From: Amanita rubescens
Taxonomy: Eukaryota > Basidiomycota > Agaricomycetes > Agaricales > Amanitaceae
Length of the DNA stretch: 39,075 bases
Assembly: GCA_015039365.1 (NCBI GenBank)
Contig: WION01000497.1
Coordinates: forward strand, 1 to 39,075
Direction: 5' to 3'
Both the position numbers and the translations under genes were made by a program. This document shows, in pieces, positions 6,093-31,443 of this stretch; within the stretch, counting starts at the first letter, position 1; every line of letters starts with the position of its first letter. A model generated the notes under the pieces. That model saw nothing but the letters and a program-made list of their open reading frames with translations, did not search any database and was not told the origin of the DNA.

Positions 6093-6135
6093 GATTGCTC
6101 TGAGGGGCCTGTCCGCATTCGCAGGTGTCCGTCGC

Positions 6136-8640: not shown

Positions 8641-8652
8641 TCGGATGGTGCT

Positions 8653-8665
8653 TTAAATATGTTAG
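8653..8665 (-). promoter_or_regulatory. TATA-like element of the P3 pseudogene
   Basis: Plus-strand TTTAAATATGTTA, the counterpart of the P2 element. It remains beside the deletion that removed the start codon. Confidence 0.4.
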
Positions 8666-8985
8666 AGGGGAAATCGAATATTACGGCAATCTGACGGCAT
8701 AATGTGCTAGTATGAGAGGATTATGCGCTAGTGCGTTTATGTAGTAGTGTAAACCAACCTTTAAACAAGCGCCATGCAGCCGGGTGCTGGAATAAGGCGA
8801 TTAGTGCTCAAATGATGCACTCTAACTTTTATAGACCACTTCTAATCCGAGTGGTCCTGTAGCGTGCGTGGGAGCCGACAGAGAGAATCTTGGAGGGAGG
8901 CGAGTGCGAGGGCGTGAGCAACCAACGCGCGTCATTCAAGGAGCGACGTCACGTCCGTATTACTATTAGGCTAGTGTCACTGCCA

Positions 8986-9462
8986 CTTTCGATGTTCCGA
9001 TTGGCTGTAGATATTTCGTTGAATTTCATTCCGAGTTTGGAGTGTGCCTCGATACTCCCCATATCGGTCACGTAGGTAACCGAAGTCATTCCTCCATCAC
9101 GCGTTCTTGCTCAAATATCATTTCTAGGCGAAATAAGAATAAACGTTTCAAAGCGCTTCAACCTATTTGAGGTAATTTTTATGGTAACCGGCAAGCCCTC
9201 ACTTGACACCATGCGTCACTCCAATAAGGTTTGACAGAACTCGATCTTTGACGGTTTTCTTGAACTTCGGACGCTTGCCGCATTATTTCAGGTCTGACTT
9301 GGGTTCTTATGCGACATACAACCGCTCTACCTAGCCATCTCCGGCATCATAAGTTCAAACCTATCCATCGTTCCCTTTCAGTACACATTCTCTTGCAACC
9401 AGTTTAACATTCAATTATGTCAATCATATTAAGACAAAAGTCAGATAAATACAATAGTAAAT
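8986..9462. other. Intergenic between P3 and P4
   Basis: No gene seen. It holds the end of the duplicated flank and about 470 bp of unique sequence downstream of P4. Confidence 0.5.
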
Positions 9463-11225
9463 TTATAGATTATAGTTCGTGGTGGCAGTGGTAAAAGGAG
9501 TGTTGGCAAATCCAATCCGTTTGTTGGTGGTATCATAGAGCGTATAGAACCTCTCGAGCCAGGTATAACCGTTGATCCAATCGAGTCCTTGACCACTCAT
9601 CGTTCCAAGATCGCCGGCAACCAGATATATAGCGCCAGCCACTCCGCCGACGTTAGTGTTCAGAGCACGAGGCCATACCTGTGCATCCGGTGTTAGGGTG
9701 AAGTTTTTCTGCATGTCCAAGTCAGCAATGTAAGATACAGGACGTATGAATGGCAACATACACCGTTGATGGTGAAGGTCAGAGGCTGTAGAGCCTCGTA
9801 CTGAGCAGCAGTTATTTCGAGCAAGCCTACGGTTGAGTTGAACGTAGCCCCTGTCGCATTCCCATACCGATACCACGCATCTGTCGCTAAGAGGATCAAT
9901 GTTGTACCTGGAGCAATTATTTGAGCAACAGTTCCAGTCTAATGATTTCTGGACTTACCAGTGTCAACAATGCCCGCAGAGTTGCCCATGATCGACAGGT
10001 GAGAACCGTATGAAACGGTTTGATTAACTCCCCAGTATTGACCAGCTGGACTAGTGCTCGTGAGAGATCTGAGAGCCAGGTCAAAACAATAGTTTTAATG
10101 AAACAGAAATCAACTAACGCATAATGGAGCGACCCTTTAAACTTCGTTGAGTCGTAACCACCTATTGATGTCTCAGTTTTCGACTTTTAGTAAATAAATA
10201 CAATTACTAACCCCATGTCAGCTCTCCATTGGCAACCCCGCTTGCCGTTGTCGGTTCATACGAAACACCGATCTCGTTGGCACCAATCACTTTTTGAGAG
10301 AACGCGTTATCGGTTATAGTAGGGACCTTGGTCGTATTGTCTGGTTTAAGGGTTCCTAGAAACCAATCAGAAACAGCTTTATTTGGCAACATTATGACCA
10401 ACATACCTATAGTTAGGTCGACTGGACCGATTCTGACCAAGAACGTCAAAAGTGCTATCAATTAGACGAGGGCAAATATTACCCTATGATGCCATCAAAA
10501 CCATTGAATCCGTGGGCCTAATCCCATGAAGTCGGTCGTCATTTACGGTCAAGTTAGCTACTCACTGATTTTGGATTTGAGACACCAATGGACTGATTAT
10601 AAACCTTGAGCTGTCCCAGGGTGATGGTGTCATTGAACTCGGCACCTTTGAGGAGATCAGAAAGAGCGGTAGTCATATGAGAATAAAGGCATCTCTACCT
10701 GTGACATTTCCTGAACCGTATGTGATAGACTGAACGAAAATTCGGCGACTTATTTGCAAAAAAAAGCGTCCGGCTTACGAAATTTTGACCAAGTGGCACA
10801 CTGGAGCTTGTCTTGACATATGTCAAGTTAGCCCCCAACCATAAGTTGGAACTGCAGAACCATTAAGATATAACGTTCAATTTTATGCTTAGGCGCTCTA
10901 CCTTCCAGTATCAATAAGAAGCGAAACTGAAGAGCCGTTAATACTATTTCAAGTAGTTGAGCGTTCGAAGCGTACAGTTAGTAGGAGGAGTTCCAACGCC
11001 AACTTGGGCCGTGTAATGTGTAGCCTGGTTACTAATTGCCTGGGAGTAACTGTTGGACGACCCAGTTGCAAGGTAACTAGCGCGGGCTTGATCACGCGTC
11101 AAGACGTCCCGAGCATTGACCGTATTAACATGTCTAGTAAGAGCCATGTTAAAGGCTGCCGAAGCCGGATTAGCGGCAAGGACGAGGGCCAGAACTAGGG
11201 TGTTGAGAAGCGCCTCGGGAAACAT
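9463..11225 (-). CDS. Polyporopepsin-like aspartic protease P4 (apparently intact)
   Basis: Complete multi-exon secreted aspartic protease. The start ATG (complement 11223-11225) gives signal peptide MFPEALLNTLVLALVLAANP and propeptide LTRHVNTVNARDVLTRDQAR. The mature start YTAQVGVGTPPTN splices to FSLLIDTGSSNLWLGAN (first catalytic motif, intact). Later exons give flap ITYGSGNVTG, EFNDTITLGQLKVYNQSIGV, GFDGIIGIGPVDLTIG, VPTITDNAFSQKVIGANEIG and IVDTGTTLILLATDAWYRYG (second motif, intact). The C-terminus contains LDWINGYTWLERFYTLYDTT and ends TTNYNL with TAA at 9463-9465. All splice joins examined are in frame with 46-60 nt introns. It is the best candidate for an active enzyme among the five copies. 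The family acts in extracellular protein breakdown. Confidence 0.88.
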
Positions 11226-11274
11226 GGTTACTCTGGGTGTGGGGCTGGTGTGCGCGTCGCGTTTGTGCGACCCC

Positions 11275-11286
11275 TTTAAATAATAT
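11275..11286 (-). promoter_or_regulatory. TATA-like element of P4
   Basis: Plus-strand TTTAAATAATAT lies 50-61 bp upstream of the P4 ATG, matching the spacing at P2 and P5. Confidence 0.5.
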
Positions 11287-11289
11287 TGA

Positions 11290-13516
11290 AGCGAATAACG
11301 CTAATTGGGTAAATTGAAACGGCATCGCGATTTGCGGAATTTTTTACCACATAGAATTTGACAAGAAAACATGCCCCTTTTAGCGCAAAAGTGATGCTAT
11401 TTACGACACATCACTGATGGGGGAGTATAAGTGATAGCCGCTAGTACGTTTAGGATGTCGTTCAGCCAACCTTGAAACGCGTTATTATGTACATCTCATG
11501 TTGCGTGCAGAAGCTATTGACTAGCATCCAGGGTGCAGCTAATCAACATCTTGAATGGACGGCATACAAGACGGTGGATAGGACGATGAGCGCAAGCATC
11601 TCTCGGGATATATTTAGAAAGGTAAAATGTCTCCGAAGCATCAACACGCCGGTGTGGCCATATGCATTTCAGCCGGTTGCTGATTTTGCTGATGTTAGCA
11701 AAGCGCGATTTAAGTATCCCCATTCTTTCTCACCCAATGTCATCAGCGATGTCATCCCTTTGCCACAAGGATTCTTCCTTGTTCGACCCTGTCTTGCGCT
11801 CATATGCCAAGACCCGTATCGGACGGGAACGGACGGGAACAGACGGGAACCCCCCAGCATACCAGGGCTCTTAGAAGCACGACGAACTGGTCCGAATGGA
11901 ACATCGCTATTCGAAACCTTAAGTCACTAACGGCGTGAATGCAGACAATGAGTATGCACCTTTATGTGATACAAATTCTTCTGAATTCCAGTCTCCAGAT
12001 GTGGTATAGTGCCGCATTAGTAATGGTCAAGATGCTGTTCCACTGAGACTGTAGCGAACATGGTTTCCCTCCATCTGTGTAGAAACTGTGTTCACCATCA
12101 CTGCCATCGTCAGTGCCATCTCCCTACACCGACAATCAACATATTGCATTGAACTATGAAGGAAGCCCACCCGATGCGCTTCAGATCTCACGGTTGCCGA
12201 GATGAGAGAATGACCCTGATGTTGACAAATGAGAACGCCGGTGACTTATCAGTTATTCACCGCACATTCCTTGCAAGTCGCCTAATTAGCCGGAGAACTC
12301 TGGTGTTCGCTTTTGGCTGCCAATGGACAAAACCAATTCATAAAATGCAGGTCCATAGAATCAATCGCTTTAACAAGGACAAAAATGCATAGAGGTCCTG
12401 TATGCAAGACGAGTAATGGGTACGTTTATCTTTAACAGGTTTTCGCGCTAGACTGAGTCTTACCAGAATCTATGCATTCTATTGTGATCTGGGGTCGTCA
12501 GAGGAATGATCATTTGACATCTGTTACGCCACGATCTGCCACAGTGCAAACTAACCTCAGAAAGAAAACGACTGCCGGCAATGTTGTGATACGCGCACTA
12601 GACGCGTGGTAGTACTTCTGATGAAGCGAACCGTCACAGCGGGTAGCTTTTAGCAAACGAATGGCAGAATTGGAGTCAACACGAATTAGGAGGACAATTT
12701 TGCTGGCAAAGGATCAAGAGAAACGTGTCACATTACATGCCACGCTTGGACCGACGCTCCAGCGCCCAGCAGTGAGTCCAGCTGCTCTTCCGCCTTGGCC
12801 ATCTGGAAGAAGGTTCGCAGAACAAAATGAGTGTCAAAAGAATGTTTTACACATATATGCTCATGCTGAAAAATATAAAATATTTATTCTACGACAGGAG
12901 CCTGTAACTCCCCGCCTGGTACCAGTCCCATCCAGGAACCCTCGTCTCTCCTTGAATCATCCACTAGCCCTGGCTTAGACGGAGACTTAGTCCCCTGCTA
13001 ACCTGGCTCATGAAATTCGTAAAAGACTCGAAGACTGCCAATTGCGAGTCACTTTGCTATCCCTTGCTTTTCTTTTACTGCATATTTGGAACGAAAAGGT
13101 TCACCCATTGACACCCAATGATAGAAGCGCAGAGGTAGCAGAAAATGACTGCAGCTGGATCTCCTTGTGAATGAATGAACTGGTTGTCACGAGCTGACTG
13201 CAGGCAAGGAGTGGGTAAGAGAACGTGGAAAGATAGTGGAACGGCGGCATTTAAAGCAATATTGTAACTAGAACATGTCCCATTTATAAACCGATGGTGC
13301 CAAGCAGCGGTGGCAACGGAGTGCAGCGTATAGTTGCGACGCAACCACTGTCGCCGCGACTATTTTCCCAAGAATGAGGTACCGGGACCGGCAACCCCCT
13401 GACCAATGCCCATCCGCCATGTTTTCTTGAATGTCCCACCATGCATACGCTCGTTATCGGCCGTAAGTGAACGACTTCAAGTCTGCTCGAGGCTATTGTC
13501 GGGAAATCCAAGCACG
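11290..13516. other. Long intergenic region, no supported gene
   Basis: About 2.2 kb between P4 (minus) and the NUDIX gene (plus). The longest frame (11472-11930) has no good start and no family features. A short direct repeat of ACGGGAACGG-like units occurs at about 11820-11850. The promoter and 5' leader of the NUDIX gene should lie at its right end. Confidence 0.5.
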
Positions 13517-14633
13517 ATGCCTCAACCGGAGCACCCAAGATTGTCAGCTAGCTTGGTTATTTTAAATCACCGAAACGAAGTCTTGCTAGTTCATAGGAAC
13601 CCCAAATCGCGGGCATACGGGGGAGTCCATGTGAGTCTTACTCCTCTCCATTAGGATCTGCTGAATGGAACATGTACTAGGTCTTCCCAGGCGGTAACTA
13701 CGATTCACAAGACGCTTCTCTTGAAATAACGGCCATCCGCGAGACCTTTGAAGAGACTGGTCTCTTACTTGCCTCTCCCGAACACTCGGGATCCGCAATC
13801 CCTGAATCAGAATGGGACAAAGCCAGACATGCCGTTCATGGGCAAGAGCTTTCTTTCGGCGATTTTTTGAACAAGTACAAACTAAAACCAGCTGTCGATT
13901 CGTTGCTGCCATTTACTGATTGGACGACACCAGAGTATGCACAACGGTAAGAAATTCTTGCTCAAATTTTACGTCTGCCGGATTTCTCAAAATTTTATCC
14001 ACTAGACGCTTCTGCACTCGCTTCTTCGTCACCTTTCTACATGCATCGTATTCTTCCAGGTTCTCGACTGGTACCAAGCAAGATTTCCTACCGACGTCCG
14101 GTATGCGGTTACCCCGTTCAATTACCTTATTGCTTTCTTATTCCTTCGGTTCCAGACGGAGGAAAAGAAATTGTATCTACCCGATTCGTTCATCCTAGTG
14201 ACGCTCTCGCCGAATTCCACAGAAAGGAAATCACATTAATGCCTCCGCAATACTATATCCTCTATACATTATCAGATATCCTCCCGAGAGGCATCAATAC
14301 CCAAAGCCAGCGTGAAAAGGTGAAGAGGCTATCTCGAGGAGCATTTGGCAAGTTGTCCTTCAATCCAAAGCATTTCCCCCCAGAAGATGGCGATGCGGAC
14401 CCAAAGCGGGTGCTGCTGGTGTACGAAGGCGACGAGACGCGAGGTGGTCCACCTGGTCGCTTGCATAGGGCATTTGTGAAGCACGACGAACATGGTGTAA
14501 GTATTTTTCATGATATATCCATTCACCCCGACGAACCTGACCGTGATGTTAGGTAACTCGTGAAATAGAACTTCATCGGAACTTTGACATATTCAAGGAC
14601 ATCGAGTCGGGACCTGCATCTACCAAGCTATGA
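13517..14633 (+). CDS. NUDT19-like NUDIX hydrolase
   Basis: Probable nucleoside-diphosphate-linked hydrolase of the NUDT19/RP2 group, whose animal members hydrolyse CoA and related compounds in peroxisomes. The chosen start is MPQPEHPRLSASLVIL. Exon 1 (EVLLVHRNPKSRAYGGVHV) splices to FPGGNYDSQDASLEIT, followed by AIRETFEETGLLL. This is the REx2EExG core of the NUDIX box, although the usual Glu eight residues before the Arg is Ala. Later exons give RRFCTRFFVTFLHAS, TRFVHPSDALAEFHRKEITL and PPQYYILYTLSDIL, all NUDT19-like. I infer introns after HV, AQR, PTS and HG, all about 55-60 nt. The last exon ends STKL and TGA (14631-14633). The TKL tail resembles a weak peroxisomal signal. No frame break. 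The 3' half is duplicated at 24303. Confidence 0.85.
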
Positions 14634-15043
14634 AACACGTATATTTATATGTTGTTCACTCGTACTGTATCAATGATTATTAGGAACTGCGTGCTGTTAC
14701 TGATAACGGCTCGAACCTGATGATGTTGTATTATCAAGACTATGGAAAAGAATAGAGGTTGGAACTTGGGAGAATGATGGCATTTGTATCACAACGGCGC
14801 TTTTGACCGGGGACGAGAAACTCATTAATCAGTATATGTGCGGTCGTTGGCAGTTGTTCCAACCCAACGGCAGGGTACGTGGTTGGGGCGCTCGACGTCT
14901 CAACATTTGTGGCGTTTTATGACATGATTTCTAAAATATGCCCGGACTATCGGCGTGCGTAGTTGTATATCAGCGTTTTGCGCACGAGAAAAGAAAAAGA
15001 TCCTGTTGCTAGATAGCGAACAACTTAGATATAGGATCGGGGA

Positions 15044-15053
15044 AAGAAAAAAA
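15044..15053 (-). terminator. Pol III T-run after 5S
   Basis: On the gene strand a stretch of T directly follows the 5S 3' end (plus strand GAAAGAAAAAAACC). Confidence 0.6.
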
Positions 15054-15169
15054 CCACAGCACCCAGGATTCCCGCGTGGTCCCCCACCGTGGTACTAACT
15101 AGGCGGCACTCTGGTTGACTGCGCAGATCGGACGGGATGCGGTGCTTTCAGAGTCCTATGGCCGTGGAT
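15052..15169 (-). rRNA. 5S ribosomal RNA
   Basis: Read on the minus strand from 15169: ATCCACGGCCATAGGACTC, then GAAAGCACCGCATCCCGTCC, GATCTGCGCAGTCAACC, GCCGCCTAGTTAGTACC, ACGGTGGGGGACCACGCG and GAATCCTGGGTGCTGTGG. This is the Agaricomycete 5S sequence at the expected length of about 118 nt. A run of T follows on the gene strand, as expected for RNA polymerase III termination. In basidiomycetes 5S genes usually sit in the rDNA spacer; no other rDNA is near. Confidence 0.9.
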
Positions 15170-15170
15170 G

Positions 15171-15710
15171 TTGGTGAATAATCTAAATTCCTTATGTACC
15201 CATTTTCTGACATTGCTGGTGGCAACGACAATTGGTGCGCTGCACTTACCAGAAGTGCGGTACCACGCGCACTTTGATGATGAAACGATTTTATATCGAA
15301 CTTCCAAATTTATGGTCAAATAAAGCGGCTCGCAGTACGCATTCACATGGAAAAAGATTAACCACAAGGCACATGTATACACCTGGTTGCTCGCAAATCG
15401 AATCATAGATCACTTGAGATGGAAAATTGGTCAGAGGGCGAACAACGCGAGCTGAAGCGCCTTACAGTAACGCTTTCAAAATCGATTGCTGCAAATAATC
15501 AAGAGGAGTGTACGCAAGAGCAACTGTGTGCAAAGGCGAGGTCGCGATAAGTGCATCCGTGGGGTTAGTATTAATAGGGTTACCACCTGAAGGCCTGACG
15601 CGTAGTAACAGCATGGATGTTTATTTCGCTACCTCGCATGACGGAATAGCAGATCACCATAACGTAGCGCGCATTCACACGTCAGGCGAGAAAGAATCAC
15701 GCGGTTCAAG
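15171..15710. other. Intergenic, diverged part of the left duplication
   Basis: Upstream of the 5S gene. It matches the right copy up to about 15322 and again from about 15678. The middle 355 bp has no counterpart there (the right copy has about 150 bp of other sequence). No gene seen. Confidence 0.5.
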
Positions 15711-16629
15711 CTATGCGCCAATCGTCATTCGCAAAGTAACATTCTGAGTAACATTACGCTGGATATGCATGTAAGCAACATGTACTACTATGCGACAAAG
15801 AGAAACGCAAACGATGCACACACCTAACTCATACCACCGAGGGTCTCTGTCTATGGATAAAAGCTGCTTGAACAAATCCAGTTCCTCCACAGCTGTGGGA
15901 CCTTGGTGAATAAGCCGAGCATTGTGAGTTGCGAAGCAAGGGACGACTGCCGCTCCCGAATAACTTGACAAAATTACTGGATAACACTCTGCCATCTCAG
16001 CAATATTCCGCACGATAGATATTTTTGAATCTCGGCTGTAGCGCTTTCCTTTCTCTCCGTGGTAGTCACCCAGGAAAGCATCATCTATGAAGTAACCGAA
16101 TCCAGCTTTTCGGTCCTTCAAGTCGTCTGGCACTGGTAGCATCTCAATAATCGCCCCTCTGGAAGATGAAAAAAGACACTTACCCAATTGCACGGACAAC
16201 GTTCATACCCGCTTGCAGTTGCGCTGCTGCTTTTTCCACCATCAGGCTTTTCTCCACCGCCACCGCCCCCGCGACCATACGTTCACTTTGCCTTTTTGGT
16301 AGTCCTGTGATGGAGCTGTGTAGTGGTAATGACAGGACCGGAACGAAGGAGAGCCAGACCGGTCGGGGACAATGCGGGAAGTAGTAGAATGTATTGCCAG
16401 GGGTGTAAGAGTGGATTGTGAGGTCCGGAGCAGATAGAACGGTGGACATTGATGAAGCGAGGCTGAAGCGAGTGATCGTCTGGATAAGAGTGGGCGTAAT
16501 ACTTATACAGCCGCCGTTCGAGCAGGCGGCCTGAACACGTCTTGCGTGGGCACGACTATCTTCCATGAAGAAATCGGAAAAAGAGTGGCTGAGGTCCTGA
16601 CGAGTTGGTGGGCGCCGGGCGTAGATCAA
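15711..16629 (-). CDS. Unrecognised protein, left copy (two exons, 3' end uncertain)
   Basis: I do not recognise the family. The upstream exon (to about 16191) reads MSTVLSAPDLTIHSYTPGNT, later GLPKRQSERMVAGAVAVEK and QLQAGMNVVRAIG. The downstream exon reads AIIEMLPVPDDLKDRKAGFG, YFIDDAFLGDYHGEKGKR, NIAEMAECYPVILSSYSGAA and LFKQLLSIDRDPRWYELG. Between them is a segment with a perfect donor (GTAAGTG) and acceptor (CTTCCAG) but only 25 nt long; removing it keeps the frame. The left duplication copy ends at this point, so the short intron may be a product of the rearrangement. Downstream of YELG the frame stays open without clear conservation, so the true 3' end is unknown. The downstream exon stays open in the right copy, which supports coding. 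Confidence 0.5.
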
Positions 16630-17428: not shown

Positions 17429-20400
17429 ATGGCAGCTACAACTGGTGCACCATCTTTGAGTAGGCTGATTTATGAGTCTCAGCATTGCTAATCCTTGACT
17501 AATGCATATCAGATGTAGATGAGACACATGTTCAAATACTCAGAGAACACTACCTATGCCCACACTTTCGTATCCTTGTCATTGGGAGGGCCAATGCAGG
17601 CAAAACAACCATCCTTGAGAAGGTTTGTGGTGTGGCAAAGGGGACAAAGCCCATTATATATAACAAGGATGGTAAGTCAGTCTCAGTTTTGTGCTTCTTT
17701 TGACTGTTGAATTTCTTGCAGGCAATCAGCTTAAACAGTCTGATATTCATTTGATGCCATCAATTGAGGTGAGTCAGATAATGATTTATGGCCCTGTCAG
17801 ATGGATGTACCCATTCACATGCAATGATAACAGAGAGGCGAGCATGATATTGAGCATCAAATTACATACCCTGGAAGTAACTTTATCTTCCATGACTCTC
17901 GGGGTTTTGAATCTGGTTCAACTGAGGAATTGGAGATTGCTTGGGAGTTCATTGAAAAGAAGTCTGCAGAAACTGAGCTAAAAAATCAGCTGCATGCAAT
18001 CTGGTATTTTGCTTTATCCCTTTATAGTCTCTCTGACTTGGCTTCCTATAGGTACTGTATACCCATGGACAGCCCTCGTCCTGTTTTACCTGCAGAACTT
18101 GAATTTTTTAATAAAGGGACAGGCAGAGGTAAGTCATAATGAATTCACAAGTCATCTTATTGGTTTTGGAGAGATTGGTTCCCCTTAACTCCTTTCCATT
18201 GGCCAACTTGCCACAAAATCTGATAGTACTGACTAATAAATATTTCCTTTACAGTCCCCTTGGTGGTTGTATTCACTAAATTTGATGGTCAAATAGCCAG
18301 TGAATTTGTCAACTTGCCTGATGCAAAGGATGAAGTTAAGTGGGAGAGAGCCAGGGAAATTGCTGAAATCACTTTTCAGAAAGTTTATCTTCCTAAAGTT
18401 TTGAATGCCAAATATCCTCCCAAGGGATATGTGAAATTGGAAGGTGAGAATGATGAGAGCTTCTCCCTAAAAATGGCAGTAATGTTGTCTCATAGACATG
18501 GATTTACCAGAAATGAATTGTGCTGAATTAACTCAGGAAACTGCTGATGCAATAGATGATAACAGCATGAATCAGCTGTTTGTTTCAACCCAGATGAATA
18601 ATCTTGACCTTTGTGTTAAATCTGCACTTCGGTGAGGGCCACTTTCAAAAGTCACTTATGGACATAATTGACATTGTTCAGACATGCCTTGGACCATAAA
18701 CAACATTGGACATGGAATGATATCATTGTCATAGTTTTTGCAAAATTTCCACATTTCTGGGTATGCATTTTTGTCAACTGCACTTCAGCATAGGAAAAAT
18801 CAAATGCAAATAGGTGGACAGGGAGGTGGGTGCCTTCATATGAAATAATAAATATTTGCAACAAGTTCATCAGGAGGTAAGCAACACTCCAATGCCTTTA
18901 CATGAAAACAAAATTACTGATACTTCAGGTGGCCAATAAACAACTGAGTGAAACACAGGTCAGGTGTCACCACATTCTTAGTGGCAAGACCTGATGTTAT
19001 TGATATCAGTGGGTAAGTCACATTGAACTAACATAAATCTGATATATTTTCTCATGACAACAGTTTGTAAGTAATGCTGTCTTTTGTGATCAGAGATCTT
19101 GTCTCATAATCTACAGGAAGTGAGTGACATGACTCAATTCTGATTTTGGTAAATGATCCCATGCACATCATATGACCAATAGCGTGTAAGTTAATTTATC
19201 ACTGAAAGCAGACTTGTTAATCCAGTCTCTCATGGACAGGGAGTGAGTAACAAAATACTGCCTCACATCACATCTGACCTGCTTAAAGAAAGTAAGCAAT
19301 GTTGACATTTCTGCAGTTTAGAGTCATAGATAACTGAATGAACTATAGAAAGTTGGTGACATACTACTGTTATCTGAAAGAGAGTCTCAACAAGTTTCAT
19401 AACAGGATGTAAGTGACATCTATCTGCTTATAAACATTACATCTTGCCTCAAATGACAGATAGTAAATATTTATAATTTTTCCCTTTCAAAGCCTCTTCA
19501 TAAACTATTGCAAAATGAACAGGATGTATGTGATACTTTCATGACATGAAAATTCATCAGATGAACAACTATGGTAACAGAGAGTCTGTGGAATTGTCTT
19601 TTCCCCAACTCAATACACTAACTTGTCCACCCTAAAAGGAAGTGAGTGATGCAGCATGCTCACCACTCTGGTGCAAGATAATTTGGACACATACAATTTA
19701 AACTTATTTTTTGTTATATAGATGGTGAGTTATATTGAACTTTCTGTGAAAAGCAGTGAAATCACAGCTTTTTCTATAAATAGCAGGTAAGCAGTATGTC
19801 ATGTTGTTTTAGTAGTTCAAATGACCTTATCAAAATGTTGCCTATGGTTAACAGCATGTGAGTAACATTGCAAATGATGCTGAAAAGCTGTCCTATCTAT
19901 TTTTCCCATGACCAACAGGAAGTGAGTGACTTTGGAGATTCTTGTGAAAGACATCTTTTCTGAACCATGACCAACAGAAAGTGAGTTACATTGCACATTG
20001 TGTGAAAGGCAGTGTCATCACATCTTTTCCTATGAACCATGATCAACAGCAAGTGAGTTACATTGCACATTTTGTGAAAGGCAGTGTCATCACATCTTTT
20101 CATATGACTAACAGAGAGTGAGTGACATTGCACATTTTGTGAAAGGCAGTGCCATCATATCTTTTCCTATGACCAACAGTTTGTGAGTGACATTGCACAT
20201 TTTGTGCAAGGCAGTGTTATCATATCTTCTCCCATGACCAACAGGGAGTAAGTGACATTGCACATTTTGTGAAAGGCAGTGTCATCACATCTTTTCCTAT
20301 GACCAACAGGGAGTGAGTGACACAAGTTGCACATTTTGTGAAAGGCTGAGTGTCATCACATTTTTTCCTTTGACCAACAGCGTGTGAGTGACACTGCACA

Positions 20401-23400
20401 TCTTGTGAAAGGCAGTGTCATGACATCTTTTCCTATGAACAACAGATTGTGAGTGACATTGCACATTTTGTGAAAGGCGGTGTCATCACACCTTTTCCTA
20501 TAACCAACAGGCAGTGAGTGATGCTGCACATTTTGTGAAAGGCAGTGTCATCACATTTTTCCTATGACCAACAGCTTGTGAGTGACACTGATTGCAAATT
20601 TATGAAAGGCAATGTCATCACATTGTTTCCTATGACCAACAGAGAGTGAGTGAAATTGTACATCTTGTGAATGGCAGTGTTATCACATGTTTTGTTATCA
20701 CATTTTTTCTATGACCAACAGGCAGTGAGTGACATTGTCCATTTTATGAAGGCGTTGTTGTCACATCTTTTCCTACTATGACCAACAGAAAGTCAGTGAC
20801 ATTGCCCACTGTATGAAGGCAGTGTTATCACATCTTTCCCTATGACCAACAGCCAGTGAGTGACATTGCACATTTTGTGAAAGGCCTAAGTGTTCCTATG
20901 ACCAACAGTTTGTAAGCAACATTGCTTATTTGTGAAAGGCAGCAACATCACATCTTTCCTATGACCAACAGGAAGTAAGTGACATTCCCAGCACATTTTG
21001 TGAAAGGCAGTGTCATCACATCTTTTCCTATGACCAACAGGGAGTGAGTGACATTGCCCATTTATGAAGGCATTGTTGTCACATCTTTTCCTATGACCAA
21101 CAGGATGTGAGTGACATTGCCCCATTTATGAAGGCATTGTTGTCACATCTTTTCCTATGACCAACAGGATGTGAGTGACATTGCACATTTGATGAAAGCA
21201 GTACGGTCATCACATCTTTTCCTATGACCAACAGGGAGTGAGTGACATCACACATTTTGTGAAAGGCCTGTGTTCCTATGACCAACAGTTTGTAAGCAAC
21301 ATTGCTCATTTTGTGAAAGGAAGTGTCATCACATCTTTTCCTATGACCAACAGCAAGTAAGTGACATTGCTCATTTTGTGAAAGGCAGTGTCATCACATC
21401 TTTTCCTATTTGGACCAACAGTTTGTGAGTGACATTACACATTTTGTGAAAGGCAGTGTCATCACATCTTTTCCTGTGACCAACAGGTTGTCAGTGACAT
21501 TGCACATTTTGGGAAAAGCAGTGTTATAACATCATTTCACATCATTTTTTATGACCAACAGGTTGCAGTGAGCAACATTGCACATTTTGTGAAAGGCACT
21601 GTCATCACATCTTTCCTATGACCAACAGGGAGTAAGTGATATTGCACATTTTGTGAAAGGCAGTGTCATCACATCTTTCCTATGACCAACAGATTGTGAG
21701 TGAGATTTCACATTTTGTGAAAGGCAGTGTCATCACATCTTTTCCTATGACCAACAGGGAGTGAGTGATATTGCACATTTTATGAAAGGCAGTGTCATCA
21801 CATTTTTTCCTATGACTGGCAACAGGGAGTGAGTGACTGTACATTTGTGAAAGGCATTGTTATCATATCTTTTCCAGCAGGTGAGTTACATACATTGCAC
21901 ATTTTGTGAAAGGCAGTGTCATCACATCTTTTCCTATGACCAACAGGGAGTGAGTAATACTGCACATTTTGTGAAAGGTTTGAGTGTTATCACATCTTTT
22001 CCTATGACCATCAGGCAGTGAGTGACATTGCACATTTTGTGAAAGGCACTGTCATCACATGCTTTCCTATGACCAATAGATTGTGAGTGATATTGCACAT
22101 TTTGTGAAACATAGTGTCATCACATCTTTCCTATCACCAACAGGGAGTGAGTGACATTGCACATTTTGTGAAAGGCAGTGTCATTACATCTTTTCCTATG
22201 ACCAACAGGGAGTGAGTGACATCACACATTTTGTGTAAGGCAGTGTCATCACATTTTTCCCTATGAACAGGAAGTGAGTGACAGTACATTGCACATTTTG
22301 TGAAAGGCAGTGTCATCACATCTTTTCCTATGACCAACAGCAAGTGAGTGACAATGCACATTTTGTGAAAGGTAGCATCTTCACATCTCTTCCTATGACC
22401 AATAGCAAGTGAGTGACATTGCAAATTTTGTGTCATTGTATCTTTTTCTATGACCAACAGGAAGTGAGTGACATTGCACATTTTGTGAAAGGCAGTGTCA
22501 TCACATTTTTTCTTACAACCAACAGGAAGTGAGTGACATTGCACATTTTGTGAAAGGCCTGAGTGTCCACTGTCATCACATCTTTTCCTATGATCACCAG
22601 GGAGTGAGTGACATTGCAAATTTTGTGAAAGGCCTGAGTGTCATCACATCTTTTCCTATGACCAACAGAGAGTGAGTGACATTGCATATTTTGTGACAAG
22701 GCAGCATTATCACATCTTTTCCTGTGACTAACAGGAAGTGAGTGACATTGCAAATTTTGTGAAAGGCCTGAGTGTCATCACATCTTTTCCTATCACCAAC
22801 AGGGAGTGAGTGATATTGCACATTTTGTGAAAGACAGTGTCATCACATCTTTTCCTATGACCAACAGCTTGTGAGTGACATTGCACATTTTGTGAAAGGT
22901 TTGAGTGTTATCCTATCTTTTCCTATGACCAACAGGCAGTGAGTGACACTGGACATTTTGTGAAAGGCAGTGTCATCACATCTTTTCCTTTGACCACCAG
23001 AGAGTGAGTGAAATTGCAAATTTGTGAAAGGCAATGTCACCAAATTCTTTCCTATGGCCAACAGGCAGTGAGTGACATTGCCAATTTTGCAAAAGGCAGT
23101 GTCATCACATCTTTTCCTATGACCAACAGGAAGTGAGTGGCATTGCACATTTTGTAAAAGGCAGCAGTGTCATCACATCTTTTCCTATCACCAACAGCAA
23201 GTGAGTGACATTGCACATCTTGTGAAAAGCATGTCATCACATCTTTTCCTATGATCAACAGGCAGTGAGTGACATTACACATTTTTTGAAAGGCACTCAG
23301 TGTTATCACATCTTTTCCTATCACCAACAGGGAGTGAGTGACATTGCACAATTTGTGAAAGGCAGTGTCATCACATCTTTTCCTATGACCAACAGGCTGT

Positions 23401-24072
23401 ATGTGACATTGCAAATTTTCTAACCTGCATTCTCAGCATCCCATCATTCATGAATGTTTGATATACCATTAAATCCTACTAATGTCAGAAAGTGAGCATG
23501 TTGCCTTATCTTTTTCCTGTCTTCTTTTACACTAAAGTTATTGTAGATTGTAAGATTACATTTCATCTCACCCACTCTCACTGCCAAGTGATGTGACCAT
23601 TCCTCTCATTTAAATCACTTTCCTTGATTTCCAGGTGAGTGATTCTGGTTTATGAGGTACTATGTACTACTGAGATGTTTTACTCTATCTCATGATTAGC
23701 ATGAGCTTTTCTCCATCTTTGGATACAAGCAACAACAGAATTTTGCTTTCAAGGTCTTTCTGTTGTTTTTTTTGTGTAGTACACAACTGATCCTATTTCA
23801 ACAAGCCTACTGATTTCCAAATCTTAGTTTGTAAATTACTCCTTTCACTTTTACTGGATTTATGCTTAAACTTTCAAGCAATTATTATCATTGCAAAGAT
23901 ATCATTTTGGATCAATAAACCACTTCTGCCATCAATCATGGAGGCCTTGGATCAATACAAGCAAAAAGGCTATGTTCAGAAGCTGAAGACTGACATTACT
24001 CCTAACTTTATGGGCTCTGGTGTTCAAGATTTTGTCACATTACTCTATAGTCAAGTGACTCACATTGAGTAG
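17429..24072 (+). CDS. P-loop GTPase with a chain of about 73 single-codon exons
   Basis: Member of an Agaricomycete TRAFAC-like GTPase family. The P-loop exon reads FRILVIGRANAGKTTILEKV (GxxxxGKT at 17584-17607). G3 is DSRG (17894-17905), then HAIWYCIPMDSPRPVLPAE, then G4 TKFD in VVVFTKFDG (18275-18286). The exon ending NNLDLCVKSAL does not stop at the TGA at 18633: that TGA is part of a GTGAGG donor. A 50-nt intron joins it in frame to RHALDHKQHWTWNDIIVIVF ending FPHFW (18682-18760). Then come VDRE (18814-18825), E (18874-18876) and VANKQLSETQ (18929-18958). From 19010 onward 71 successive mini-exons follow, then HELFSIFGYKQQQNFAFK (23700-23753), a single TTT (23828-23830), and the last exon, ISFWINKPLLPSIMEALDQY through TLLYSQVTHIE, stop TAG at 24070-24072. 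Every join from 18682 on is phase 0. The N-terminal exon is uncertain (ATG 17429, donor near 17445). Codons are strongly A/T-ending, unlike neighbouring genes. Confidence 0.75.
18874..23830 (+). repeat. Tandem array of intron plus one-codon mini-exon units
   Basis: Each unit starts with a donor (GTGAGTGAC, GTAAGTGAC or close) and runs through a core like ATTGCACATTTTGTGAAAGG. It ends TTTTCCTATGACCAACAG (branch-like TATGAC, acceptor CAACAG), and exactly three bases follow before the next donor. I count 72 three-base exons and one six-base exon (GTTGCA near 21563). Units are diverged and 46-80 nt long at 18.9-19.9 kb, then nearly uniform at 60-66 nt from 19.9 to 23.4 kb. Triplets by my count: GGA 14, GAA 9, GCA 6, TTT 6, AGA 5, AAA 5, CAA 5, ATT 4, GAT 4, others fewer. 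No TAA, TAG or TGA. Without the exon reading it would pass as a 5 kb minisatellite. Confidence 0.9.
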
Positions 24073-24302: not shown

Positions 24303-24740
24303 AAATTCCACAGAAAGGAAATCACATTAATCCCTCCGCAATACTATATCCTCTAAGTATCAGATATCCTCCCGAGAGGCATCAATACCCAAAGCCAGCG
24401 TGAGAAGGTGGAGAGGCTATCTCGAGGAGCATTTGGCAAGTTGTCCTTCAATCCAAAGCATTTTCCCCCAGAAGATGGCGATGCGGACCCAAAGCGGATG
24501 CTGCTGGTGTACGAAGGCGACGAGACGCGAGGTGGTCCACCTGGTCGTTTGCATAGGGCATTTGTGAAGCATGACGAACATGGTGTAAGTATTTTTCATG
24601 ATATATCCATTCACCCCGACGAAGCTGACCGTGATGTTAGGTAACTCGTGAAATAGAACTTCATCGGAACTTCAATGACATATTCAAGGACATCGAGTCG
24701 GGACCGGACCCGCATCTACCAAGCTATGAAACACGTATAT
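24303..24740 (+). pseudogene. NUDIX hydrolase 3' fragment
   Basis: Copy of the NUDT19-like gene starting at FHRKEITL, so the NUDIX box and everything before it are absent. A small deletion changes TATACATTATCAG to TAAGTATCAG (about 24353-24362) and puts a stop after YYIL. The rest (RGAFGKLSFNPKHFPPEDGD, RLHRAFVKHDEHG) is nearly unchanged. Non-functional by structure. Confidence 0.9.
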
Positions 24741-25098
24741 TTATATGTTGTTCACTCGTACTGTATCAATGATTATTAGGAACTGCATGCTGTTACTGAT
24801 AACGGCTCGAACCTGATGATGTTGTATTATCAAGACTATGGAAAAGAATAGAGGTTGGAACTTGGGAGAATGATGGCATTTGTATCACAACGGCGCTTTT
24901 GACCACGAGAAACTCATTAATCAGTATATGTGCGGTCGTTGGCAGTTGTTCCAACCCAACGGCAGGGTACGTCAAGGAACGGTTGCCCCGCTCGACGTCT
25001 CAACATTTGTGGCGTTTTATGGCATGATTTCTAAAATATGCCCGGGCTATCGGCGTGCGTAGCTGTATATTAGCGTTTTGCGCACGAGAAAAGAAAAA

Positions 25099-25137
25099 GA
25101 TCCTATTGCTATATAGCGACAACTTAGATATAGGATC
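25099..25137. other. Short inverted repeat downstream of 5S
   Basis: GATCCTAT and ATAGGATC are perfect 8-bp inverted arms. In the left copy (about 14999-15038) one base differs (GATCCTGT). Position is just past the 5S T-run. Significance unknown. Confidence 0.35.
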
Positions 25138-25150
25138 GGAGAAAGAAAAA

Positions 25151-25268
25151 AACCACAGCACCCAGGATTCCCGCGTGGTCCCCCACCGTGGTACTAACTA
25201 GGCGGCACTCTGGTTGACTGCGCAGATCGAACGGGATGCGGTGCTTTCAGAATCCTATGGCCGTGGAT
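25151..25268 (-). rRNA. 5S ribosomal RNA, second copy with two substitutions
   Basis: Same sequence as the left 5S gene except two C-to-T changes on the gene strand: AGGATTCTG for AGGACTCTG, and CCCGTTCGATC for CCCGTCCGATC. The first leaves a G-U pair in a stem; the second alters a conserved loop. The T-run terminator is kept. It may be an active variant or a decaying copy. Confidence 0.8.
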
Positions 25269-25269
25269 G

Positions 25270-25649
25270 TTGGTGAGCAATCTAAATTCCCTATGTACCC
25301 GTCTTCTGACATTGCTGGTGGCAACGACAATCGGTGCGCTGCGCTTACCAGAAGTGCGGTACCACGCGCACTTCGGAAAAGATTTTAAATCGAACTCCAA
25401 AATTTATGGTCAAATAAAGTGTAGCATTCGGTCATTTCCATTGCCTCGCGCGATTTCATGTCTAGGCTAATCTAACCTCTCGATCCTCATTGACCCACGC
25501 TGCCAGTATACTATCACGACATCTGTTAACAGTGGACAACCTCATCGAAACCCCCACACCTTTGAATCACACGTCAGGCGAGAAGGAATCAAGCGGTTTA
25601 AGCTATGCGCCAATCGTGAACACTGAGGCTTTTCGCAAAGTAATATTCA
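25270..25649. other. Intergenic, right duplication copy
   Basis: No gene seen. Contains the block (about 25419-25567) that has no counterpart in the left copy. Confidence 0.5.
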
Positions 25650-26138
25650 TTACGCTGGATATGCATGTAAGCAACATATACTAGAAACGCAAACGATACA
25701 CACACCTAACTCATACCACTGAGGGTCTCTGTCTATGGAGAAAAGCTGCTTGAACAAATCCAGTTCCTCCACAGCTATGGGACCTTGGTGAATAAGCCGA
25801 GTATTGTGAGTTGCGAAGCAAGGGACGACTGCCGCTCCCGAATAACTTGACAAAATTACTGGATAACACTCTGCCATCTCAGCAATATTCCGCACGATAG
25901 ATATTTTTGAATCTCGGCTGTAGCGCTTTCCTTTCTCTCCGTGGTAGTCACCCAGGAAAGCGTCATCTATGAAGTAACCGAATCCAGCTTTTCGGTCCTT
26001 CAAGTCGTCTGGCACTGGTAGCACCTCAATAATCGCCGTGCTGGAAGATGAACAGCTGATATCAGCCGGGACTGTAGACATAACGTCCGGGCTAATTAGT
26101 GGCACCTTTTGGGCGTGACAGGTGGAATTTGAGTCCAT
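25650..26138 (-). pseudogene. Unrecognised protein, right copy (5' truncated)
   Basis: Carries the downstream exon of the 15711-16629 gene (AIIEVLPVPDDLKDRKAGFG through DRDPQWYELG) but a different sequence upstream of it, so the first exon is missing. The frame is open, and in the shared exon I see five replacement and one silent difference. It is either a truncated pseudogene or a gene with a new 5' end (MDSNSTCHAQKVPL...). Confidence 0.5.
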
Positions 26139-26416: not shown

Positions 26417-29400
26417 ATGGCCGATCATCGACCCTCGTCGAAGACGTTCCTAAAAGCATTTCGAGGATGGGTTAAGACACCCAAATCAGTCACGAGTCCG
26501 GTTTCTGCCTCTAATGCAGTAATTGCAAAGTCGACGACTTCAAGTCAGTGTATTGTATCCGACTCAACAAGAAGATCTCCACCTCCTTTGTATACGAGCG
26601 TTCCAGATCTGTTGGGTCAAGGTGAGATTACAAGACGCCGAACTTTCAATTGACCTCGGATACGTCTCAAAGGGCGTGACGACGGCGAAACAAGCCGTAT
26701 TTCGACTTCTACCCCATGTGGTTCAACATCCATCTCCCCAACACCCGCCATCTCAGGAACAGCCTTTCCCGAGACGCACCCACATGCGCTTTCGGTGTAT
26801 TCTCAAGCGCAAAACTCCTACTCGGCCAAAGATATACTCGCAATCGCTTGGACTGGCATGGAAATGTTGCTCAAGAAGGTCGAGGGATGTCTCGGTGGAA
26901 CCCTGGCAAAGGCGCCTGTTGCCGCTGCTAACGCCATCATCGACATAAAAAATGTACATTGTCAGCCTGTCTACCACACACTCACTCATTCTCTGCCTCA
27001 GGCGGTTAAAGACAACAAGGACACCCTCGAAGAAATCATCATTCAGACTGCTGAAAGACTCCTTGCCGTGAATAAGGCCGTGGACGAAGGTATACCTGAC
27101 TCTGCAAAACCACGAATGATGGCCTTTGCCGGGTAAGCCATTCACATAACAAAATCGTAGACATTACTAAACCAATATGCGCAGGATCCTCCGGGATGAA
27201 ATCCGCAAGCTAGAGCAAATGGCATCGAAAGGAACACTTAGACAGTTATTGGAGAACGAAGCAGACAGGAGCGCCATAGAGGATGCATTCAAACGGATTG
27301 ACGAGGCTAGGAAGACTTTCCAGGTCAACCCTATTGAACTTCCTAACAGATTACCAACTTGCTCACTCGTCGCATCCAGCTCGACATCGCCTGGACCACC
27401 GAGAGAAAGGTGGATGATATACACTCTGAGATCAAAGTAAACATCACAATCTTCTACTAGGACGAGTGCTAATCATCCATTAGCTATCGCAGCTTGACCA
27501 TATGCGCGCTCGGAAGGCGATCTACAACGCTGACTTGGGGGGCGGGGGGACAGTGACCCGCGACCCATGCACCGAAGGAACGCGCGAGCAGATTCTCAAG
27601 GATGTAATCACATGGGCCGAGGCCATCTCGGCGGACTGCCCGCCTGTATTCTGGCTGACCGGTCAAGCTGGCTCTGGCAAGACAACAATCGCATATACCA
27701 TTGCCCAGCACTTCGATGGGCTTGAGAAGAAAGAACATACGGGACGACATACCGTCTTGGGCGGCACCTTTTTTTGTTCCCGCCAATTTGAAGAGACAAG
27801 ACGACAAGTCCATATTATACCCACCCTTGTATACCAGCTCGCTCGAAAGTCGAGATCGTACGCACACGCTTTGCATGAATCAGACAAGTTCGACTCGGCC
27901 GACAAGTTGACCGAGCAGATGGAGAACCTCTTTATTGGCCCATGGGAGAAGTCCAAACCCCAACGTCATACAGAGCTCCCACCTTACCTCATCATCGTTG
28001 ATGCATTGGACGAGATCGAAGCCGTTGGAGGGTCCAAGTTTCTTCAAGACATACTCAGGACAATTAACCGACATCCCCTCCGAGGACTCAAATTTCTTAT
28101 CACAAGCCGACCAGACCCTCATGTCGTCGAACTCTGCAAGTCTTTCTCGTCCAACGCCGTCTGTCGCCTGCAAGACGTGCCGATTGAGCATATAGAATCA
28201 GATATCACCAAATACCTGCACGTCAAGCTTCCGAACTTTGCGGGAAAGCCAGAGTTGGAGACCACGGCACGACTGGCGGACGGTCTGTTTATTTCCGCCG
28301 CAACCATCGTGAGGTATTTGACACCACGTCCACTGATCACGGTAGACGAGCAGTGCAAGCTACTGCGAAAACTGCACGTCCGGCAATCATTTTCAGCAAG
28401 TGGTACACGGAGACCATTACTCATTGACGAGTTATATCAGCAAATCCTGCGTGACGCATTTTCTGGCCTTGACGACGACCTCTTCGACTCTCGTCTGCGC
28501 ATCCTTCATACCTTCCTCTGTACATTTGAACGCACATCGACATCTCTTGCTGCTACCCTCCTCTCTGAATCAGATGAAACTGCGATCACGGTGTTGAATG
28601 AACTTCACGCGGTTCTCTATTGCAAAGATGACCAGGTTCTTTGGTACCACGCATCATTTCCCGACTTCATCTTCAGTCAGACACGATCGACATTCGAGCT
28701 TGATGGTCGTCGGATTTCCATGTCAATCCAGCCCCACCACCACGCTCTCCTCACAAACCATTGCTTCGATTTCATGTTGAAGTTGCTACGTTTCAATATA
28801 GGTGACATACCATCGTCATTCGTTCTCGATTCCTGAGGACCCAGAACTGACGCACCGGGTTGACACTAATATCAATGCCATCCTGAGGTACGCCTCTCGG
28901 CACTGGGCTCATCATTTGGCCCTGACCGATGAAACGGAGGCCGATGACAAGTCGAATCTCTGCGATCGTATCACGGACTTTCTTCGTATCCGGATTCTCT
29001 TCTGGATTGAGGCGATGAACCTACTTGGATCCAGCGGTCAGTGTACCAGAATCCTCCAATCTGCGCGTGGGTGGGTCTTGAAGGTGAGAATACTATCAGT
29101 TTGGATTCACAATTTCCAACGTTTGGTCAATCAGAACGCGAACGCAGAATCCAAGCTTGCTGCCAACATTGCGGAAGCAGCCAATTTCGCCACTTACTTT
29201 GTTGCACATCCACCTGCTTTGTCCACACCGCACCTGTACATCTCAGCATTAGGCGACCTGGTCAACAGGGTCCACTCTCTCTCAACAGTGGAGAGATCAG
29301 TTCCCTCACATCCCTTCTTTCACTCATAGGACGGCTAGTGATGTGTCACTGGCGGTTATACAAACCGAAAGTTCTATTCAATCTGTCGCCGTCTCTGCTG

Positions 29401-31443
29401 ACGGCACGCGCATTGTCTCTGGCTCATACGACAACGGAGTGCAAGTGTGGGATGCCTCAACTGGGGCTGAACTGAGGGGGCTCAGGGACTCCCACCCCGC
29501 TTTTATCCGTTCCGTTGCCTTTTCTGCTGATGGCATGTACATCGTCTCTAGCTCAACCCACTCCTTGGAGGTGTGGGATGCCTCGACTGGGGCTAAGCTG
29601 AAGGCGCTCTATGGCCACACTGAATCCATCTATTCCGCCACCTTCTCTGCTGATGGCACACGCGTCATCTCCGGCTCAGAAGACCGGTCTGTGCGGGTGT
29701 GGGATGCCTTGACTGGGGCTGAGCTGAAGGTTCTCAATGGCCACACCGGGACCGTCTATTCTGTCGCCTCCTCCGCTGATGGCAAACTCATCGTCTCTGG
29801 CTCAGACGACAAGTCTGTGCGGGTGTGGGATGCCTCGACTGGGGCAGAACTGAAGTTACTCAATGGCCACACCGGGCCCATCTATTCCGTTGCCTTCTCT
29901 GCTGACAGTAAACACATTGCCTCTGGCTCACGTGGTGCCTCTGTGCGGGTGTGGGATGCCTTGACTGGAGCTGAGCTGAAGGTGCTCGAGGGCCACAATG
30001 GTGATGTTAATTCCGTCGCCTTCTCCGCTGATGGCACACGCATCATCTCTGGCTCAAGTGACCATTCTGTGCGGGTGTGGGATGCCCTGACTGGGGCTAA
30101 GCTAAAGGTGCTCAAGGGCCACACCAGGGTCGTCTATTCGGTTGCCTTCTCTGCTGATGGTACACGTATCTTCTCTGGCTCCGAAGACAGGTCCATGCGG
30201 GTGTGGGATGCATCGACTGGGGCTAAGCTGACGGTGCTCAATGGCCACGCCAGTATTGTCTATTCCGTCGCCTTCTCCGTTGATGGTAAATGTGTTGTCT
30301 CCGGCTCACACGACGACTCTGTGCGGGTGTGGGATGCCTTGACCGGAGCTGAGCTGAAGGTTCTCAATGGCCACAGCTGGACCGTCTATTCCTGTCGCCT
30401 ACTCCGCTGATGGCAAACTCATCGTCTCTGGCTCAAGAGACCGGTCTGTGCGGGTGTGGGATGCCTTGACTGGAGCTGAGCTGAAGGTGCTCAAGGGCCA
30501 CACTGAGACCGTCTATTCCGTCGCCTTCTCTGCTGATGGCACACATATCGTCTCTGGCTCAGGTGACAAGTCTGTGCGGGTGTGGGATGCCTCGACTGGG
30601 GCCGAACTGAAGTTGCTCAATGGCCACACCGGGGCCATCTATTCCGTTGCCTTCTCTGCTGATGGCACGCGCATTGCCTCTGGCTCAGGTGACCGGTCTT
30701 TGAAGGTGTGGGATGCCTTGACTGGGGCTGAGCTGAAGGTGCTCAATGGCCACACCGATGATGTCAATTCTATTGCCTTCTCCACTGATGGCACACGCAT
30801 CATCTCTGGCTCAGACGACAAGTCTGTGCGGATGTGGGATGCTGCGACTGGGGCCAAACTGAAGTTGCTCAATGCTTATGCGACTGTCTCCTCCGTCGCC
30901 TTCTCTGCTGATGGCATGTACATTGCCTCTGCATCCACGGGTCGGTCTGTGCAGGTGTGGGATGCCTCAACTGGGGCTAAGCTGAAGGTACTCGATCATG
31001 GCCACACCGATACAAACCCCTTCGCTCCTAACGGCGCCTCGGGTACCATCACTTCCGTCACCTTCTCTGCTGATGGTACACGCATCGTCTCCGGAGCATA
31101 CGACGGGTCTGTGTGGGTGTGGGATGCCTCAACTGAGGTGCCAAACCTTCACACAGATTCAGCCAATTCCATTACCTCCCCCGGGACTGACGGCACCTGC
31201 ATTACCTTAGAGCCGGAGGAATCTGCACAGTCGTACATTGTAGGCCGCACTTACCCTGCCTGGACTAGTGATACCAAAACAGGCTGGACCCATTCAGTTC
31301 ATGGTGGTTATCGACTCATGTGGGTTCCAGAGCAGGCTTATCCATACAGCATCATCATAATTTCCCGGAAAGCATCTGCCTATATCAACTTTCAAGGTTG
31401 CAAGATTGGTCGTGATTGGGCTGGTTGTTACATACCTAGCTAA
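26417..31443 (+). pseudogene. NACHT-WD40 (fungal NLR-like) gene with several frame breaks
   Basis: STAND NTPase with the order N-terminal helical domain, NACHT, helical linker, WD40. The start MADHRPSSKTFLKAFRGWVK is followed by 50-60 nt introns through AKDILAIAWTGMEMLLKKVE, TLEEIIIQTAERLLAVN and ITNLLTRRIQLDIAWTTERK. Walker A is GQAGSGKTT (27661-27687); Walker B is LIIVDALDE (near 27990-28013). Breaks: one extra T at 28834 gives TGA after IPSSFVLDS where the conserved text continues EDPELTHRV; one extra G near 29252 before ATWSTGSTLSQQW; one extra T at 30393 inside a WD repeat. At about 27324 either a 26-nt intron or a one-base deletion is needed. The C-terminus (GYRLMWVPEQAYPYSIIIIS ... GCKIGRDWAGCY) is typical, with TAA at 31441-31443. 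Family members are linked to heterokaryon incompatibility and innate recognition. Confidence 0.8.
29380..31140 (+). repeat. WD40 repeat block, about 14 near-identical units
   Basis: Period about 126 bp (42 residues), pattern VRVWDA(S/L)TGAELKVLNG then HTxxVYSVAFSADGTxI(V/I)SGS. I count eight units before the break at 30393 and six after. Units share long identical nucleotide stretches, pointing to recent internal duplication or conversion, as known for fungal NLR-type WD40 genes. Variation concentrates at a few positions (DRS/DKS/HDDS, HTGTV/HTGPI/HNGDV). Confidence 0.9.

Follow-up and report, generated by a model that had tools for sequence, protein, structure and literature searches.

Hypervariable repeats are known from fungal NLRs of the NACHT-WD40 type, in which the units vary in number and at selected positions. 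Very small exons and near-identical introns have been described in other systems, summarized here from excerpts of the cited papers. Schistosome micro-exon genes (MEGs) consist mostly of very small symmetrical exons, with a few residues added or dropped without a frameshift (PMC4350168), and their alternative splicing gives rise to protein variants. In Drosophila, micro-exon 8 of homothorax (hth) measures 3 nt and every internal exon of hth lies between CAG and GTGAGT or GTAAGT (PMC7392893), and exons of a single nucleotide are found in plant APC11 and VPS55 (PMC8831610). Introners, or introner-like elements, are near-identical introns present at many genome positions (PMC9860276, PMC4457414), and the only fungi named for them in the excerpt are pezizomycotina/ascomycetes (PMC9860276). 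Here, we analyzed a stretch of 39,075 bp from Amanita rubescens (GenBank acc. no. WION01000497.1, contig C437 of a 75.7 Mb genome in 786 contigs), in the following called the window. It harbors a GTPase gene with 72 mini-exons, which are predicted to encode a flexible linker and are very likely joined codon by codon by the ordinary spliceosome (probability of about 0.9).

The gene model, which starts at or near position 17429 and ends at 24072, revealed 85 exons, 84 introns, all of them GT-AG, and one uninterrupted reading frame for 473 residues. A first inspection of the same letters (the sequence-only reading) had proposed a run of 73 one-codon exons between spliceosomal introns, with more than 80 splicing events for one mRNA. 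Direct reading and a script both recovered the run and its splice sites, and 84 introns agree with the predicted number of events, but the mini-exons amount to 72, namely 71 of 3 nt and one of 6 nt (GTTGCA, 21562-21567). These were chosen by eye; an automatic chain search recovered 63 of them and missed nine exons with weak sites. The run was also claimed to be consecutive, which holds for the 71 mini-exons forming an unbroken row from TGG (19010-19012) to ATT (23547-23549), but not for GAG (18874-18876), which stands before the head exon VANKQLSETQ. Entry in phase 0 from VANKQLSETQ and exit in phase 0 into HELFSIFGYK were borne out by the model; the two proposed exit exons, HELFSIFGYK (23700-23753) and the one with ISFWINKPLL, are both present, although a 25-nt exon (23806-23830) lies between them. 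All 72 mini-exons are symmetrical and in phase 0, none of them is a stop, and together they account for 219 of the 1422 nt of coding sequence. The array is a tandem repeat with a period of 65 bp. Its 70 introns between successive mini-exons range from 46 to 90 nt, 53 of them differing from 62 nt and 52 not being a multiple of 3, and despite these varied lengths the mini-exon size stays at one or two codons. Since the units are copies, the fixed spacing alone proves little.

The architecture presented as a peculiarity of one gene is real in the window gene but belongs to a large gene family. Searching the genome with the unit pattern CTATGACCAACAG-NNN-GTGAGTGACATTGC (at most two mismatches) resulted in 998 forward and 1004 reverse matches, 2002 in total, while the reversed control of the pattern gave 0 matches in the genome. 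The last exon had at least 150 matches. Many contigs resemble duplicate haplotypes and the assembly seems to hold both, so that numbers of matches are not numbers of distinct genes. We took 25 further stretches, 17 by the array motif, four by the last exon and four by their match to a database protein, P0121 (see below), and array units were present in all 25, although 17 of these had been selected by that very motif. An array-less family member was not established among the stretches taken; the candidate, L028, proved to carry an old array, as do L030-L033. These five were handled separately, and L023, a contig end with five units, was left out of the chain search. The window and each of the remaining 19 stretches yielded a chain of 24-80 exons. 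For pooled counts, L010, L016, L027, and L029 were omitted as near-identical copies or overlap, leaving 16 arrays.

Whether the triplets are codons was judged from their composition. The chain search used donor and acceptor profiles only and allowed exons of 1-12 nt; its profiles were trained on AG-N(1-8)-GT strings of the same loci, and the resulting 3-nt chains are therefore more a description than an independent test. In the 16 arrays it placed 833 exons, 812 of exactly 3 nt and 824 with a length divisible by 3. No stop was found among the 812 triplets in phase 0, whereas permutation of first bases within arrays gave a mean of 64.4 and a minimum of 44 stops (2000 trials). In phases 1 and 2, stops numbered 2/778 and 90/778, respectively; phase 1 is nearly open as well, presumably through composition. 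In line with the claim that no mini-exon is a stop, T-initial triplets made up 0 of 452 NRA but 99 of 296 NNT triplets (Fisher 1e-45), and genome-wide, with exact flanks, there were 0 occurrences of TRA, 484 of VRA, and 79 of TNT, the latter distributed over 36 contigs. Because the units are related by descent, the counts lack full independence, but they show selection against phase-0 stop codons in the arrays. Third-base C or G is rare in array triplets (33/812) compared to the ordinary G-domain exons of the window gene (103/285), and the same is true for NYA triplets (31/812, 17 of them outside L009, versus 35/285). An NYA triplet would create a YAG acceptor. Avoidance of third-base C/G and of NYA thus fits splicing.

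Evidence at the transcript level came from P0121, a database protein of 285 aa from a 1,099-base contig labelled jgi. Its one unbroken frame runs over the array as well as over junctions between ordinary exons of this type of gene, and it therefore very likely stems from spliced RNA. When its array region of 71 residues was aligned to stretch L031 (contig C328) with a spliced-alignment program, 69 of 71 residues were identical across 45 introns, with a score of 422 compared to a mean of 202 and a maximum of 228 for 20 shuffled cores. At other loci, 64 residues were identical in L032 and 49-50 in L028, L030, and L033, and all five sister loci outscored all 20 of their own shuffled-core controls. 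The exons of L031 were placed in the order of P0121; the introns separating them measure 48-106 nt, of which 44 are GT-AG and one is GC-AG, and single-codon exons accounted for 39 of 45 in the matched chain. GC donors (GCAAGT) were seen in some array introns, both in L031 (before exon 1185-1187, trimmed coordinates) and in L028. Via P0121, whose RNA origin is very likely, splicing of a very small exon into mRNA holds for L031, and we infer the same for the window gene, with codon-by-codon splicing in this copy as well. Further agreement came from P0002 and P0034, which are piecewise up to 89% identical to the A. rubescens genome. Compared to the array head W.F.E.x.G.K..., all 18 comparisons (nine loci, two proteins) scored above all 25 shuffles; as an example of the shared head, WFEKGKKESDREIEYDGG stands against the single-codon exons W.F.E.Q.G.K.K.K.T.D.R.E.I.H.Y.D.G.R of L014. 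Altogether, phase-0 stop avoidance, splice-compatible codons, the agreement with P0121, and the open frame of 473 residues favour spliceosomal introns after single codons, as the sequence-only reading had proposed.

A number of observations weigh against this interpretation. Nine of the 833 chain exons break the multiple-of-3 rule. That the contig of P0121 derives from RNA, though very likely, was deduced from its protein, and this protein matches an old array with diverged introns and no young homogeneous one. In addition, the identity of its G-domain part is 98-99% at contigs C23 and C67 but 94-95% at L031, where the last exon reaches 90%; P0121 is therefore a copy from another strain, a mosaic, or a chimera assembled from copies. 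P0002 and P0034 agree with the arrays in the head only; farther on, their residues, which may be out of frame, do not correspond to any array of A. rubescens. On the window, their automatic alignments track the chain through WFERGK only and then use other triplets, with 14 and 16 identities in 28 residues. A query in which 13 residues after the array were wrongly modelled returned no transcript of the window gene and none of a young array body, and among database proteins there was no match to the array and C-terminus of the window gene. Among nine deposited Amanita proteins, eight stop soon after FPHFW/FPHYW and one skips the array. The latter, P0088 from A. rubescens, has FPHYW joined almost directly to the C-terminal domain. 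With eight of nine relatives stopping short and one jumping over, standard annotation misses such coding sequence. Finally, the array of L009 contains 2-nt and 4-nt spacers, so that it cannot be in frame throughout and is probably not translatable throughout. This array (C13:576500-586400, 5285-8340) is otherwise almost perfect; three of its spacers measure 2 nt and two 4 nt, and CTA codons, rare elsewhere, occur 13 times. It is frame-broken, very young, or an assembly error.

As a correction to the sequence-only reading, the introns in the younger part of the arrays turned out to be near-identical copies. The array head of about 13 codons (WFExGKKxxDREI) is common to paralogues and has diverged introns, and the units with near-identical introns begin abruptly after it in L009, L012, and L026. 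For diversity estimates in these three loci, units with flanks of at most two mismatches from the consensus per 28 nt were sampled (42/55, 68/80, and 26/43, respectively). Flank diversity was 0.003-0.023 per site, a value favoured by this selection of units, and diversity at codon positions reached 0.5-0.7, except for the first (0.05) and third (0.18) position in L009. The three loci contain 99 identical copies of one 62-nt intron, beside 13 codons. Likewise, L009 and L026 are 98.4% identical in their flanks (2393/2431 bases upstream, 711/723 downstream), but their codons are quite different. In L011 (C8:73000-82900, 5643-6979), a local 53-nt intron variant has spread to 13 positions beside six different codons. 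Unit pairs with identical introns shared their codon in 145/836 (L012), 42/214 (L026), 17/88 (L011), and 191/670 (L009) cases, and pairs with different introns in 64/761, 230/1928, 273/2245, and 77/647 (per-locus counts). At 17-29% versus 8-12%, coupling between codon and intron is therefore weak but not absent.

Comparison of near-identical pairs revealed 14 substitutions in 7328 bases between the window and L010, one in 6135 between L012 and L027, and six in 5738 between L017 and L029. None of these 21 substitutions falls into an array codon, where about 0.7 were expected by length, so that, again to the disadvantage of our interpretation, this is no test of selection and excludes a strong excess only. 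Small indels between chain exons measured 1, 7, and 1 nt in the window/L010 pair, 7 nt in L012/L027, and 1 nt in L017/L029. L012 and L027 differ, over the 6135 aligned bases, by one whole 65-nt unit (intron plus CGA), the one substitution, and the 7-nt insertion inside an intron. Between close old paralogues, codons changed less than introns, with 1/117 versus 100/2719 for L031/L032 and 1/105 versus 48/2344 for L028/L030. L028/L033 (3/105 versus 88/2367) and L030/L033 (4/105 versus 77/2338) are mixed, and the six distant pairs changed more in codons, e.g., L028/L031 with 14/105 compared to 212/2332 in introns. Strong continuing hypermutation of codons is unsupported, given 0/21 substitutions in array codons and close old paralogues that vary less in codons than in introns. 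Overall, introns look homogenised within and across loci and codons do not, be it via intron replacement, short-tract conversion, or diversification at unit birth.

With respect to the origin of such genes, it may be that throughout the GTPase family the recognition linker is encoded in single-codon cassettes set in near-identical introns, the introns acting as interchangeable recombination handles that are spread or replaced apart from the codons. Linkers would then be extended, shortened, or rewritten amino acid by amino acid across many loci with the frame intact. A more tentative account is that the codons are older than the introns and that mobile introns, introner-like or arriving by reverse splicing, entered between existing codons or replaced older introns there. 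It concerns origin and is compatible with codon-by-codon splicing. The recurrence of the 62-nt intron beside 13 codons and of the L011 variant beside six fits this account, as do the identical-intron pairs, which seldom share a codon, and the matching flanks of L009 and L026 around different codons. On the other hand, each insertion would have had to hit phase 0 exactly 3 nt from the next, and an uninterrupted WFExGKK exon was not found with one exact pattern. Insertion of the transposon type with 3-nt duplications is unsupported: the intron ends show no inverted repeat (7/14 bases match), and adjacent codons are equal in 112/796 cases only, which argues against a 3-nt target duplication. Shuffling nevertheless gives a mean of 84 equal neighbours, fewer than the 112 counted, and codons are common to pairs with different introns less frequently than to pairs with identical ones. 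Both are predicted by duplication of whole units.

Since one-codon exons in phase 0 can be skipped without a frameshift, the arrays might also serve combinatorial splicing, with many linker isoforms per gene. Though the symmetry of all 72 window mini-exons permits skipping, we regard this as unlikely, because P0121 keeps all codons of its sister locus without a skip (71/71 positions aligned to L031); being a single sequence, it leaves room for minor isoforms. Far less probable is a minisatellite within one large intron that is removed as a whole, with splice-like motifs as passengers. The 65 bp tandem repeat and the omission of the array from P0088 would suit it, but it was rejected on account of stop avoidance and the codon-by-codon agreement with P0121; besides, no gap between successive window mini-exons exceeds 90 nt, i.e., no unit has lost its sites. 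Least probable of all, an assembly artefact or pseudogene arrays, for which the broken spacers of L009 suggest that some arrays may be dead or misassembled, conflict with stop avoidance, and an artefact was rejected on account of the agreement of near-identical copies on separate contigs (window/L010, L017/L029) and the match to P0121 as an outside sequence.

In codon-by-codon splicing, the spliceosome would take out one intron of 46-90 nt after another and join single codons. Splice sites would presumably be recognized by intron definition, a strict form of which the sequence-only reading had assumed, because an exon of 3 nt is too short for bridging across it. Loss or gain of one unit of about 65 bp, seen once in L012/L027, would drop or add a single residue without a frameshift, and in this way the array could let the linker vary freely in length and sequence. 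For its place in the protein, we used an AlphaFold2 model of the related full-length P0048 (mean pLDDT of 75.4, 22-sequence alignment). Here, the counterpart of the array (residues 314-358) showed block-mean pLDDT values of 31-48, lowered as well by the few aligned sequences that cover this segment, and appeared partly as helix between the G domain and the C-terminal helical domain, both modelled with more confidence. From this model we infer that the array codes for a flexible, hypervariable linker between these two domains. The best Foldseek hits were GM4951, IniA, and Irga6, i.e., immunity-related or dynamin-like GTPases (E about 1e-5), with TM-scores of 0.24-0.43 (rmsd 12-29 Å), which are too low to establish membership in these GTPases. 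Family size, variability, and the weak fold likeness lead us to guess at a role in self/non-self or pathogen recognition. Our best guess for the purpose of the arrays, and the least certain point of the analysis, is that they rapidly diversify a surface for recognition or assembly in a large family of GTPases.

All parts of the window gene lie on the plus strand. A probable first coding exon, MAATTGAPSL (17429-17459), placed by comparison with the N-termini of P0001 and P0002, is followed by seven ordinary exons of the G-domain part (17513-18760; 17513-17671, 17722-17768, 17834-18003, 18052-18128, 18255-18443, 18496-18631, and 18682-18760) with a GRANAGKT P-loop, giving eight ordinary G-domain exons. 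The domain scored 20.6 bits with PF01926 (MMR_HSR1 GTPase), just below the curated cut-off of 21.9, and some relatives are annotated with PF01926 in the database. Exon VDRE (18814-18825) matches the place of VDRA/VGRD in P0002/P0034, and the 30-nt head exon VANKQLSETQ (18929-18958), which comes after the first single-codon exon GAG, corresponds to MANKQLSEAQ in P0034. The conserved head of the array comprises 13 single-codon exons, WFERGKKDIDREM, with diverged introns (19010-19724); the hypervariable body and tail (19784-23549) add 58 mini-exons, including the one of 6 nt, with introns that are mostly copies of the consensus of about 62 nt. Downstream of the array, exon HELFSIFGYKQQQNFAFK (HELFSIFGYK) occupies the same place as GPLLSLFG in P0121/L031, the 25-nt exon PTDFQILV(S) was placed, like the first exon, by homology, here to P0121 and L028, and the last exon, IIIIAKISFWINKPLLPSIMEAL...THIE plus stop, contains ISFWINKPLL (23879-24072).

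Near-identical open reading frames (ORFs), SDILPRGINTQSQREKV... and GDYHGEKGKRYSRDSKISIV..., were found on both sides of the GTPase gene (13951-16202 and 24357-26138), which therefore lies between two copies of a duplicated stretch. Further downstream on the plus strand, an ORF at 27484-31443 runs into repeats with a period of 126 bp (29385-31009); we take the ORF to be NACHT-like and the repeats WD40-like, so likely a fungal NLR. Several related ORFs on the minus strand, repeated along the window (549-11300 and 37044-39053), resemble, in our estimation, aspartic proteases.

Compared to the excerpted systems introduced above, the locus shares single features with each. As in MEGs, its mini-exons are symmetrical (71 of 3 nt, one of 6 nt, phase 0), but they are single codons, 71 stand in a row, and the introns are short tandem copies; moreover, most of the coding sequence of an MEG lies in small exons (PMC4350168), in contrast to 219/1422 nt here. 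The isolated micro-exons of hth and plants demonstrate that exons of one codon or less are spliced accurately, and CAG-exon-GTGAGT/GTAAGT is the commonest context in the window, too; these are, however, lone exons between ordinary ones, not 71 in succession. With introners, the arrays have in common near-identical introns at many sites (99 identical ones in three loci, 2002 motif matches within two mismatches), but array introns are tandem and 3 nt apart, and in the loci examined, which were chosen by array motif or family exons, they lie in one gene family. Introners of the DNA-transposon type carry terminal inverted repeats and target-site duplications, of which the arrays gave no sign (7/14 end bases, 112/796 adjacent codons). 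The repeats of NACHT-WD40 NLRs are repeats of the protein within an open frame, while the Amanita array unit is an intron plus one codon. One intron per codon was encountered in none of the excerpts on MEGs, hth, plant 1-nt exons, or introners, and no description of runs of single-codon exons or of these Amanita genes was found in searches of open PubMed Central papers. With 84 predicted splicing events for a protein of 473 residues, exon size and intron density would be at the practical limit, offering a natural test bed for intron definition and the accuracy of sequential splicing, and also for intron gain, given that one and the same 62-nt intron is found next to different codons. What would be new is the gene architecture and a way in which a protein segment could evolve, if true a eukaryotic diversity generator with the codon as its unit. 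While a stricter view would see an extreme MEG-like variant, we regard the architecture as categorically new and the splicing chemistry as presumably ordinary.

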